Positions 5,477-13,385 of a DNA stretch of 64,000 nt are shown here, in pieces; the stretch's first letter is position 1, and each line of letters opens with the position of its first letter. The position numbers and the translations under genes are program-made. Source of the stretch: Cryomorpha ignava (GTDB taxonomy: Bacteria > Bacteroidota > Bacteroidia > Flavobacteriales_D > Cryomorphaceae); assembly GCF_010686655.1 (NCBI RefSeq), contig NZ_JAAGVY010000022.1, positions 1-64,000 of the forward strand, written 5' to 3'. The notes beneath the pieces were generated by a model, which ran no database searches, was not told the origin of the DNA, and saw only the letters and a program-made list of their open reading frames with translations.

Positions 5477-5543
5477 TGGGCAAAACGGCAACTGTATGGT
5501 ACGTGTCCCGTAGGGCATGCACTATACAGAATGTTGTGAGAAG

Positions 5544-6113
5544 TTATTCTACTTTTTTAATCTTATTTATCTCTTTAAGATTAAGTAGACGAATGAATAC
5601 CCATTCGCTGTTTTCAAATTTCTCAATGAATCCTGTTTCCTCATGAAAAGATATTCTGATAGTACCTTCAGGTTTCGAAGAATCAAATACCAGTCTTTCA
5701 AGTTTAATTCTGCTTTCTTTCTTATCGGATGGTACAACCGTTAGAAAGATATTCTCACAAGGAATAATGGATTCGTTCAGATATGCCGATATGCATTCCA
5801 TTTTAAAGCTTCCGACATTAAGAGGTCTTAATTTATATATGTATTCCGTTTCTGAAGTCTTCAGACCGTCTGCAAACCTTATTTGCTTGAGCTTTTGGGG
5901 ACCAAATGAAACCGCAAAGTTTTTGAAGTTGGGAAAACTTACGGAGTCTGGCTCGAAATCGATTTTTATGGATACTTTAATTAATTCGTCCACTCCTATG
6001 GTATCTTTTTCTAATTCTACTCGAACCGATTGAGCGTTCATTCTCAAGACAGCCATGAGAAGTATGAGAAAAGTCAGCGAAACCCGCAGAGTGAAATGAA
6101 AATGGTCATTCAT
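5544..6113 (-). CDS. BatD-like (oxygen tolerance) N-terminal domain protein
   Basis: This 189-aa protein has a signal peptide ending near RMNAQS. It then has one Ig-like domain matching the start of BatD proteins: VRVELEKDTIGVDELIKVSI, then FPNFKNFAVSFGPQ, then YIYKLRPLNVGSFKM. Full BatD proteins are 400-600 aa with several repeats and a membrane anchor, so this is a short, single-domain relative, probably periplasmic. No Bat operon partners (MoxR, VWA proteins) are nearby. The adjacent lipoprotein gene may be its partner. Confidence 0.6.
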   Translation of the reverse strand: MNDHFHFTLRVSLTFLILLMAVLRMNAQSVRVELEKDTIGVDELIKVSIKIDFEPDSVSFPNFKNFAVSFGPQKLKQIRFADGLKTSETEYIYKLRPLNVGSFKMECISAYLNESIIPCENIFLTVVPSDKKESRIKLERLVFDSSKPEGTIRISFHEETGFIEKFENSEWVFIRLLNLKEINKIKKVE

Positions 6114-6178
6114 GTTAGAATTTTTTGTTGATAAGAATTAGTAGTTATTCAAATACTCAAATTGCTCACAACATTCCG

Positions 6179-6262
6179 ATAAGCGTACATGTACGCTTAT
6201 TTCCGCATTGGACGTAACCTCTGTGACCCTTTCGCACCCCAAGTTTAATCAAAAAACCCAAA
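6179..6262 (-). repeat. Intergenic hairpin plus conserved 30-bp core, copy a
   Basis: A perfect 22-bp palindrome occupies 6179-6200 (arm ATAAGCGTACA). It is followed at 6233-6262 by a 30-bp core (starts CGCACCCCAAG, ends AAACCCAAA) that is identical to 13253-13282 and related to 9103-9130. Each copy lies about 110-170 bp upstream of a minus-strand gene in the accessory zone. The element could be a cassette-boundary or regulatory repeat; its function is unknown. Confidence 0.7.
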
Positions 6263-6305
6263 TGATTAAAACTTACTACACAGTTATTAGCATCAATCTT
6301 CCACT

Positions 6306-9067: not shown

Positions 9068-9130
9068 GGCATCTATCCTTTTTACAGATGCCAACATCTT
9101 TGGCACCCCGAGTTTAGCTAAAAACCCAAA
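9068..9130 (-). repeat. Intergenic hairpin plus conserved core, copy c (diverged)
   Basis: The hairpin GGCATCT…AGATGCC (9068-9092, perfect 7-bp arms) is followed by a core at 9103-9130. This core is a diverged version of the 30-bp core at 6233-6262 and 13253-13282 (GGCACCCCGAGTTTAGC… against CGCACCCCAAGTTTAAT…). It lies about 110 bp upstream of the lipoprotein pseudogene. The hairpin sequence is unrelated to those of the other copies, but its relative placement is the same. Confidence 0.6.
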
Positions 9131-9244
9131 AGATTAGAACTAATCGCATAACTGCATAAAAGCATAATGAAACTAAAACCTTCTTCCGCAAAGTTAATTT
9201 AGCCCATTTGCGCACAACCTTGCATAACGAACTAGGTCACTTTT

Positions 9245-10505: not shown

Positions 10506-12155
10506 TTAGGGGCGGAGCTGTCTACTCGATTGGGCATAGTTTTCTTTTATTATCAATGCAGTTAATTCACCAAGTATCGTCCTCAAGGTTTTTAATACAG
10601 CTTCATCATCAATGATTAACTTCCTTACAATACTTTCATATGTTGCCCTATCAATACCTAAACCATTAGCAATGTTATTAAGCACGGGTGTTTCTCTTAC
10701 TGGATAGCGAGCAATAAGACCATTTAAATTTTTGTCATAAATTAATTGATCAAATTTGGCTACCTCTTGATTGAAATAATCTTCAAGACTAAGTTTGAGT
10801 TCAAAATCTTTATTTTCAATAATGTCAGTATGTTTTGGAAGCATAGACATAATCTCGGTTCTAACTCTTTTTTCAGATAATCTGGAACAGAGTCTCTCTT
10901 TATGTGAGCTAATGTAACTAACTATATTTACTGTTGCAGTACCGAACAATTCATCACTATCTGACCCTGTGAGTTCCGCATAAGTGTTAGCAACGAATCT
11001 TATAATATCTAAATGATAATATAGGGACTCAACGGAATAACATTTGGTTGCTATTATTCTTTTTTCAAACAATTCTTGAATTTGGTCAGTTGTTCTGTCA
11101 TCTGCATCAATAAGACCAAAAGCATTAATCCAGTGTAAGGATTCACTACTAGTTATGCCTTCTACAGCTTTCAACATCTTTACAACTGCCTTTTGGAACA
11201 ACGGAGACAGTAGGATATATTAATTGGTAAATCTGTCTATCTAAACTTTCATTATTGCCTTCAACAAAAAGAATTTCTCGTTTTGCTCCTAATATACTTT
11301 TTTTAATTTCTGGCGAAATTTGAGCTGATTCTGCTATTAAATCTGCATCCCAACTGTCAATATTCTTTCCGTTCCAGCTGCAGTTTCTTACTAGCAAAGT
11401 ACTTGATTTGAAGTTGTCTACTGGTAGAAAAATGTCGTGGATTGAAATTACAAAGGCGCAATCGCTTCTTTTGAGAAACAGTGATGTCAATAGAGGGGAA
11501 ATTATTGCACGGTGTAAATGGCTTTCAGGTTCATCAATTATTATTAATGTGTTTGGATCAGAGGTTAATACATCTGCAGCAATAAGTAATGCATTTCGTT
11601 CGCCATCTGAAAGTTCAGCGATGCTGTACAAAGCGCTACCATTCTTAGAAGCGAACAACTGTTCATCTTTACCAAGTGAGATTTCAATGGGTATGTTTGC
11701 TATTGCAAGTAACTCATTGATTCCTTCAATAGGCGCTTGAGCATTTGAGAGTTTTTTGGCTGAATCCATATCATCTTCATCTACCGCTTTTGCAATATGT
11801 CTAGCTCGAATATTTTGAGAGTTTATGAGATCAAATATTGAAATGCTAGATCTTTGAGAAGAATATACGTCTTGCCATCTTGAAGTGATTTGCTGGTCTT
11901 GGTTATTTATATTCGTCTCTGTCTGCTTCTTTTTCGCAGCAGTTAAATCCATAGAATTACTTGTAAACCAAGTTTGCCTATGCGCTAAAATCCGTTTCGC
12001 ATGGGCTCTGTTACTAGCATATAAGTTATGCATTAATGTGGACTTCCCAACCCCATTTGCTCCGAGAACGAAGACGGCTCACCCTCCGCCAATGGAACAG
12101 ATATTTGCCCATTATTAGAAGTCTTAATGTTAAATAAATATTTGTTCTTCGTCAT
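10506..12155 (-). pseudogene. AAA ATPase with C-terminal TOPRIM/DUF4435-like domain (OLD-like), two frameshifts
   Basis: Reading begins at ATG 12153-12155 (MTKNKYLFNIKTSNNGQISV) and runs to PLAEGE. A frameshift near 12073-12078 follows, then VFVLGANGVGKSTLMHNLY (Walker A). Further on are the ABC-type signature LSDGERNALL and Walker B LIIIDEPESH, then LFVEGNNESLDR of a TOPRIM-like domain. A second frameshift near 11165-11200 follows, after PKGSCKDV, and the frame resumes as KAVEGITSSESLHWI with FGLIDADDR (acidic DxD). The end is at 10506. Intact relatives are OLD-family-type nucleases or ATPases, often in phage-defence settings. As read, the gene cannot give a full product. Confidence 0.75.
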
Positions 12156-12168
12156 TCAGTTTAATTAT

Positions 12169-12296
12169 GCCAACGGCAATATAAGCGTAGTGCGGGATTT
12201 CGAAGCACATACTTTCAATAAACCGTAATGTTCCTTGATTGCAAGATATTCATTTTTAGACGTACAGCCCGCATTACGTTTATAAAATGTTAGCGG
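12169..12296 (-). repeat. attC-like palindromic site (candidate integron cassette boundary)
   Basis: On the minus strand the site runs from CCGCTAAC (12296-12289) to GTTGGC (12174-12169), 128 bp apart. The inner arms CGTAGTGCGGG (12186-12196) and CCCGCATTACG (12268-12278) pair with one mismatch, and further pairing extends outward. This is the general attC layout (YYYAAC … GTTR with imperfect palindrome). The TAA stop of the gene at 12290 lies inside the CTAAC box, and the next gene's ATG is only 14 bp beyond GTTGGC. The core boxes do not match the RYYYAAC/GTTRRRY consensus perfectly, and no integrase is in the window. Confidence 0.5.
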
Positions 12297-13084
12297 TTCG
12301 GGTTTCTTCTTTTATTATTTTTTGTTGTCATAATTTTAATATCTGAATACAGGTAAATGCATGCAATTGTAATTGCTGCAATTCCGGCTATAACTGCTCT
12401 AACAGTCATAGATTGTGAAATCATATAAATGCCAAGGATAATCAGAGAAATGCAAAATGGATAAGCTAAAAGTCTGATTAAAACTCTTTTTAAGCTCCAT
12501 TCGCTTTTCACTCTTTCAATTTTAACTACTTCTGGTTTTCCATTTTTGACAGCTGTCAAGTTTTCCAAGAATGTACTAATATTTTTCCTATTCCATCCAA
12601 ATGAGGCTACAGAGCTCATACTTTCAGGGCTGCAAATGCTGTTCACAAAAAGGCGGTCTTTATCTTTTGCAATTGTAACCATCTCACCCCAACTTGCTGT
12701 CCAATTCCAAGATCGATATGCTCTTAAAAAATTCTTGTTATTACGCTCAATACTCCATTTTAATTCTCTTGCAGTCCTATCAACGGCTTCTTGAAATTGC
12801 TCGTCTGAAAATGTAACATCGATTTCTTTAAATTTCAGGCGCCTATATTGGATAAAAGCAAAAAATAGAGCAAGCAATAAAAATGGTAACGAAGTTCTTA
12901 TTATTTCTCTTGAAGTCCGAACTCCGGTATAGGTGTCCGTTACGTGAATTTGAATCAAACTCCATGCTGTCAATGAAACGATAAACAATAGAAACAAGAC
13001 TATTCCATAATGAGTTAAAGTCTGAAGAGGTTTTAATTTCAGTCTTTTATTTTTTTTCATTATTTGTGTCCACCTATTTTTCAT
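12290..13084 (-). CDS. Hypothetical four-helix membrane protein
   Basis: This 264-aa protein has two N-terminal membrane helices (about 25-47 and 66-84). A ~100-residue soluble middle follows, with tryptophans (RAYRSWNWTASWGEMVTI, ICSPESMSSVASFGWNRKN). Two C-terminal helices (about 207-226 and 231-248) and a basic tail ending RRNPNR complete it. No family is recognised. Its stop codon is embedded in the attC-like site, and a GTTAGCGG box lies 25 bp upstream of its start. It therefore looks like a single-gene cassette. Confidence 0.6.
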   Translation of the reverse strand: MKNRWTQIMKKNKRLKLKPLQTLTHYGIVLFLLFIVSLTAWSLIQIHVTDTYTGVRTSREIIRTSLPFLLLALFFAFIQYRRLKFKEIDVTFSDEQFQEAVDRTARELKWSIERNNKNFLRAYRSWNWTASWGEMVTIAKDKDRLFVNSICSPESMSSVASFGWNRKNISTFLENLTAVKNGKPEVVKIERVKSEWSLKRVLIRLLAYPFCISLIILGIYMISQSMTVRAVIAGIAAITIACIYLYSDIKIMTTKNNKRRNPNR

Positions 13085-13108
13085 TTGTGGTTACCATATT
13101 TTGCCTGA

Positions 13109-13282
13109 CCGCTAACACATCAATAAGCGCAACTAGTTAACTATATATCCCAAAATCAGGGAATAAACGCAACTTCTATTACGCTTATTGAAAAATAAGC
13201 GCAACTGTTGCACTTATTTCCGTTTTGGGCGTATGCTGTTTCAAACCACTTCCGCACCCCAAGTTTAATCAAAAAACCCAAA
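13109..13282 (-). repeat. Intergenic multi-hairpin element with conserved 30-bp core, copy b
   Basis: From the gene outward: a GTTAGCGG box on the minus strand (13116-13109); a hairpin with perfect 10-bp arms TCAATAAGCG (13120-13129) and CGCTTATTGA (13182-13191); and a second hairpin, AATAAGCGCAAC (13194-13205) with GTTGCACTTATT (13207-13218). The 30-bp core at 13253-13282 is identical to 6233-6262. The layout is the same as in copy a, again upstream of a minus-strand gene. Confidence 0.7.
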
Positions 13283-13385
13283 AGGTTGCCACTTATCTTA
13301 TAGCAAATGTGAAAAGGCAAAAGAATCCCTCACTCCCATCGCATAAAGCAAACTTAAACCAACACAATCACTAAGAGATTAAATA

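Follow-up and report, generated by a model that had tools for sequence, protein, structure and literature searches.

Integrons are defined and detected by an integrase, IntI, that carries an I2 domain. Their circular cassettes possess a single attC site, the outer arms of which are separated upon insertion; each site is therefore expected to carry a 3' arm complementary to the 5' arm of its successor. Integron recombination is considered to require the I2 helix (PMC8138268; PMC7790495), and I2 has been claimed as an innovation needed for the recombination of single-stranded attC sites (PMC7790495). Bacteroidota are listed among the carriers of integrons (PMC8618304), and an IntegronFinder survey reported for Bacteroidetes integrases without cassettes and one complete integron from Salinibacter (PMC9024848). 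Integron cassettes also integrate outside integrons at attG sites, which are described as divergent from their classical att counterparts (Loot et al., 2024, in PMC12901181). Arrays of recombinase-associated acquired interbacterial defence (rAID) combine a tyrosine recombinase with orphan immunity genes in a common orientation and with conserved motifs between the genes; the route by which these genes are acquired is unclear (PMC12247911). In Riemerella, aph(3')-IVb, flanked by 27 bp on its 5' side and by 140 bp of attC-like sequence on its 3' side, was found to integrate precisely, independently of homology and by an unknown mechanism (PMC13148043), and XerD genes have been noted beside tet(X), their role being untested there (PMC7473080). 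Our literature search, from which subscription journals were mostly missing, returned no description of arrays driven by I2-less integrases; a prior description is not excluded.

Here we analyzed a stretch of 64,000 nucleotides from Cryomorpha ignava (hereafter the window; contig NZ_JAAGVY010000022.1, C22), for which an original prediction had proposed an integron-like cassette with one gene framed by attC-type sites. A T9SS sorting tail encoded in this genome supports its assignment to Bacteroidota. We consider it likely, with a probability of just under nine in ten, that this feature is a mobile cassette of an integron-type system, composed of one gene and an attC-type site, which is located at an attI-like pad and belongs to an I2-less integrase.

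Results

The cassette gene is found on the minus strand at 12290-13084 and encodes 264 amino acids without a Pfam or NCBIfam match. The boxes, gene, stop codon overlap and distances of the original prediction were all present in the sequence at their predicted positions. The R' box GTTAGCGG at 13116-13109 (minus strand), which forms the 5' end of the cassette with a crossover inferred at G/TT, lies 25 bp ahead of the ATG at 13084, and the TAA at 12292-12290 overlaps the R'' box CCGCTAAC (12296-12289, minus strand). The downstream junction is formed by the R' box GTTGGC (12169-12174, minus strand), and the next ATG follows closely, 13 bp beyond 12169. The sequence between gene and GTTGGC had been described as a 128-bp palindrome; its length and its end at 12169 hold, but the element proved to be a hairpin whose inner stem is imperfect and whose loop is long and variable, and the core of the attC-type site from AAC to GTT comprises 120 bp (12172-12291, minus strand). 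Similarly, CCGCTAAC does not pair with GTTGGC as assumed, but over 9 bp with the start of its own cassette, (A)CCGCTAAC at 12296 being complementary to GTTAGCGG(T) at 13116. The arm-pairing check revealed no matching next R'' for the GTTGGC box, nor was any site detected beyond the downstream gene (10506-12155, minus strand), which encodes an OLD/Abi-like ATPase of the AAA_21/DUF4435 type, is frameshifted soon after its ATG and probably represents resident DNA or a decayed cassette.

Folding of 12169-12296, which had been proposed as a check, gave a divided outcome. The parted site in its chromosomal form was not more stable than shuffled sequences (z = -0.67 for the top and -1.64 for the bottom strand), whereas with the cassette's own two arms joined, as in the free circle, the bottom strand reached a z of -3.60 that was matched by none of 200 shuffles. 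Homologues of the cassette gene are sporadic (8 of 395 genomes), and conserved synteny, which would have refuted the original prediction, is absent. Hairpin sites of a similar general kind are located near homologues of the gene at L155 and L158. Current mobility of the cassette is inferred only.

An attC-type site was confirmed downstream of the gene but not upstream, where the cassette is preceded by a repeated element ending in GTTGCGCTTATTGATGTGTT (13114-13298, minus strand). We read this element as an attI-like landing pad because its motif, ATAARCG...CGYTTAT...GTT, matches the one directly behind the integrase genes of relatives, such as GAAATAAGCGCAATAGCGCTTATCCAATTGTT behind the integrase of G004 from the same family; it may be an attI that has been displaced or, alternatively, a repeat of the host that mimics attI. 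A copy with 90% identity occurs at C2:124-310, and the homology stops at the GTT(A) junction, beyond which the sequences differ. Further copies or related pads were observed ahead of other cassettes at C22:6170, within the window, as well as at C2:190543 and C8:49661. The former is a second attI-like pad (6170-6275, minus strand) containing the palindrome ATAAGCGTACATGTACGCTTATCGGAATGTT, which in its exact form is present twice in the genome and not at all in a reversed control, with cassettes after both copies. The second pad and cassette extend over 5484-6172 of the window, with a gene of 189 amino acids that has a BatD DUF11-like domain (5544-6113, minus strand) and a short attC-type site of 52 bp (5484-5535, minus strand), the R'' box CTCACAAC of which pairs over 8 bp with GTTGTGAG at the pad. 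A repeated stretch, TTTTGGGTTTTTTGATTAAACTTGGGGTGCG, was also noted upstream of pads (window positions 6179-6275, 9103-9135 and 13200-13298) and may be a promoter, a terminator or part of a carrier element. The uninserted form of the main locus would correspond to the pad at 13116 joined to GTTGGCATAATT.

Sites of the same kind are repeated elsewhere in the genome, as the original prediction required. A blastn search with the site at 12172-12291 detected 20 further copies (76-92% identity, E <= 7e-10), and a covariance model of the core from which the arms were excluded detected 37 sites with E < 0.001; in a search of relatives, sites were found in 14 of 30 genomes, including the genome itself. 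Many of the blastn copies crowd on a few contigs (C71, C47, C62, C55 and C75), and contigs tend to break at or near them. While the sites in the window are single at each pad, other contigs carry two to seven sites each, together with contig breaks. Aligned copies agree between AAC and GTT but diverge outside this core. Among the 13 consensus pairs of the inner stem, six had both partners altered in one or more of the 21 copies, 95% of the cells in the stem alignment paired, none of 500 shuffles reached the observed covariation, and shifting the partner abolished it. A simple search for the pattern CGCTAAC N70-100 GTTRGC yielded no excess over the control; the arms vary, and the true spacing exceeds that of the pattern. 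Rfam contained no matching family for the site.

The arms, by comparison, follow the order of the sites. Among sites detected by the model without arms, the 3' arm matched the 5' arm of the next site over 7-10 bp in 11 of 18 neighbours, compared to 51 of 607 other arm pairs (8%), a difference not reached in any of 20000 permutations. This directly observed complementarity between successive sites is the imprint of circular cassettes. Several arm mismatches leave room for undetected sites of another type, for example the 52-bp ones found on C100, on C2 and in the window. Near-identical cassette ends, read by eye as an XRE/HigA-like antitoxin, were also noticed at two contig ends (L040:8889-9155 and L041:8100-8366); large chromosomal integrons typically contain toxin-antitoxin cassettes.

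The original prediction had considered an integrase-less cluster (CALIN). Nothing in the genome exceeded the IntI (TIGR02249) cut-off, but the system is more than such a cluster: an integrase does exist, which the present assembly covers only in part and which is intact in relatives. The ends of C75 and C100 each encode the final 59 residues of a tyrosine recombinase, a fragment that stops short of the I2 region. The two C-termini are near-identical and are followed by the same attI-like stretch and then by a different first cassette each, with three cassettes on C100 forming a chain whose arms match over 10, 9 and 9 bp. Searches of the contigs for recombinases did not recover the remainder of the integrase gene from the assembly, and C22 itself has no tyrosine recombinase match. 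Two other candidates were set aside: the tyrosine recombinase beside a site on C70, which contains stops and is followed by a frame resembling an IS91-type transposase by eye, was not accepted as the cassette integrase, and two adjacent tyrosine recombinases on C99 were read as a RIT-like element.

In the complete chromosome of a member of the same order (G009), the integrase of 381 amino acids is followed by a palindromic attI and about 20 cassettes in an unbroken chain. The sites of the first chain had been picked by arm pairing, which is circular as a statistic, and the region was hence rescanned blind to the arms. This rescan identified 17 sites, all of them on the coding strand, and 12 of 16 neighbours paired in comparison to 24 of 273 other pairs. 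One G009 cassette (L082:13817-15248) is tandemly duplicated, with two 214-amino-acid genes that share the same start and near-identical sites. A search of 150 genomes of the order with the G009 enzyme suggested that, apart from G009, about 74 of 149 possess this integrase type, counting matches above approximately 180 bits or high-identity fragments; XerC/D scored around 120 bits, and the threshold was set by eye on a bimodal distribution. In most of the relatives inspected, the palindrome and GTT are seen right behind the stop codon of the integrase gene, and wherever integrase and sites lay no more than 12 kb apart (eight genomes), the sites were without exception located downstream on the same strand. 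The association across the order is only moderate, with an integrase in 28 of 43 site-bearing genomes versus 46 of 106 without sites (149 genomes, Fisher p = 0.013). Sites without a detected integrase are common and look like integrase-less clusters or cases in which the integrase was not assembled. Many of the integrases at L098-L127 possess an additional N-terminal portion of about 95 residues (380-400 amino acids in total), while others are devoid of it (280-300 amino acids).

Compared to VchIntI4 (2a3v), the G009 enzyme is missing some 42-43 residues between two conserved halves, corresponding to the I2 insert. In the alignment, I2 was visibly absent from all 33 integrases of relatives: the segment comprises 25-26 residues in these cassette-type enzymes, 67 in 20 canonical IntI, most of which carry an ALxRKYPNA motif there, and 29-33 in Xer. 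The G009 integrase obtained 204 bits with TIGR02249, and the I2-less type remains below the IntI cut-off. In a careful tree, IntI forms one clade (100/100), and the I2-less enzymes are placed with IntI and apart from Xer (87/54). The unity of the I2-less group is weak in that tree (70/89, sister to IntI), whereas a quick tree nests IntI inside it. The trees thus disagree on whether IntI is nested in or sister to the I2-less enzymes, and the order of events is unresolved.

Comparable arrangements were also detected more widely. A Rufibacter plasmid (Cytophagales, L131) carries the same kind of array, in which 3 of 6 neighbours pair versus 0 of 36 other combinations. An immunity-gene array on a Bacteroides ovatus plasmid (L130:5725-12804), which fits the rAID definition and is termed rAID-like here, bears the imprint of the exchange at (A)TT, with 9 of 10 neighbours matching versus 4 of 100. 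On an Empedobacter plasmid, tet(X2) makes up an entire cassette, with a full attC-type site and arms that match over 10 bp, and a second cassette with 9 bp comes after it; in Acinetobacter tet(X3) is located directly at the attI of an I2-less integrase that is annotated as tpnF or tyrosine recombinase. The tet(X2) and tet(X3) units start exactly at the GTT crossover on Empedobacter plasmids (L161:3116-4328 and L160:698-1914) and in Acinetobacter (L128:3804-4988); the 3' arm GGCTACTAAC of the L160 and L128 copies mismatches the 5' arm.

Discussion

The system described here shares with integrons its single-gene cassettes with a stop codon over R'', attC-type hairpins with GTT/AAC, an attI beside the integrase gene and an IntI-related integrase. 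It meets the features of a canonical integron with regard to an attC with a covarying stem, a 5' end complementary to the cassette's own R'', and a first cassette joined at GTT by attI, but not with regard to an IntI with I2 (25-26 residues in place of 67). Unlike in integrons, the integrase reads in the same direction as the cassettes, and the attI consists of a short, almost perfect palindrome with GTT behind it; the arms of the sites pair over 8-10 bp. The rAID of gut Bacteroidales are similar in that their tyrosine recombinase is related and also lacks I2, their short genes share one orientation and their intergenic motifs are conserved, and the rAID-like array of B. ovatus exhibits the same arm exchange. 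This rAID-like array differs by joins at (A)TT, short sites and immunity genes, as opposed to GTT, sites of 52-190 bp and diverse genes here, and the window does not fulfil the rAID definition, with no tyrosine recombinase on C22 and cassette genes without an immunity-family match. As in attG insertions, single cassettes occur outside integrase-linked arrays; in contrast to these, however, the pads are attI-like and form a repeated element of the genome, so that the attG criterion is not met. The aph(3')-IVb unit of Riemerella anatipestifer, from the same phylum, is likewise a precise unit of short leader, gene and attC-like 3' hairpin, although no recombinase has been identified there.

A conventional integron or CALIN, the sites of which are moved by a canonical IntI with I2 encoded elsewhere and either unassembled or lost, could account for the integron-like site anatomy and arm exchange, and other classes of the phylum often possess canonical IntI, which exceeds the cut-off in 105 of 395 genomes. 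We nevertheless regard this explanation as very unlikely, given that no match over the cut-off was obtained in the C. ignava genome, only one of the 105 IntI-bearing genomes (G186) is from its own class, and the arrays of relatives begin directly behind I2-less integrases. Even less credit can be given to the idea that the sites are an ordinary dispersed palindromic repeat, such as a MITE, a REP-like element or a terminator, which flanks genes by accident. Elements of about 120 bp that form hairpins and occur in many copies, some distant from arrays, would be expected under this idea, but a MITE or REP has fixed ends, whereas here only the core is conserved and the arms vary and match the arm of the next copy. 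Moreover, the copies are co-oriented (17 versus 0 in G009) and located downstream of integrases on the same strand.

Equally hard to sustain is a shuffling of integron-like structures by homologous recombination between similar sites without an active site-specific recombinase. The identity of up to 92% between sites of the genome and the fragmentary state of its integrase are compatible with such a process, yet an exchange within the site would neither break cleanly at GTT nor preserve an arm pairing of 9-10 bp. In addition, both G009 and the rAID-like array maintain the pairing despite diverse sites, and tet(X) units as well as pads are joined at GTT. The mobile cassette of an integron-type system with an I2-less integrase thus remains the best explanation, although several points count against it: only a fragment of 59 amino acids represents the integrase in this genome, the I2 helix is regarded as indispensable for integron recombination, the window contains single cassettes and no array, and sites and integrase are only moderately associated across the order.

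According to this explanation, an I2-less tyrosine recombinase related to IntI would recombine the cassette hairpin with the palindromic attI beside the integrase gene or, alternatively, with a dispersed attI-like pad, with a presumed crossover at G/TT. Upon excision, a cassette would become a circle, and the union of its two outer arms would yield a single perfect stem. Catalysis by the I2-less enzyme and the use of a folded single strand are inferred, as no recombination has been observed.

The rAID-like array, the tet(X) cassettes, the Rufibacter array and the Riemerella capture all fit one system. Cassette exchange is a possible mechanism of rAID assembly, and, judged by analogy, the capture of aph(3')-IVb would probably be due to the same system. 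A tentative proposal, which at present we would not favor over its negation, is that a system powered by the I2-less integrases of Bacteroidia operates across the phylum and recombines hairpin attC sites in the absence of I2, that these enzymes constitute the ancestral stock or a sister line of IntI, and that the same system underlies rAID, the spread of tet(X) as a cassette and the Riemerella capture. If these enzymes are the stock or sister line of IntI, cassette capture would predate I2. The claim that I2 is needed for the recombination of single-stranded attC sites (PMC7790495) becomes testable with natural enzymes. The assembly of rAID and the movement of tet(X) would likewise gain a concrete, testable mechanism, and, if such arrays indeed run on I2-less integrases, a large reservoir of cassettes is being missed by current tools.
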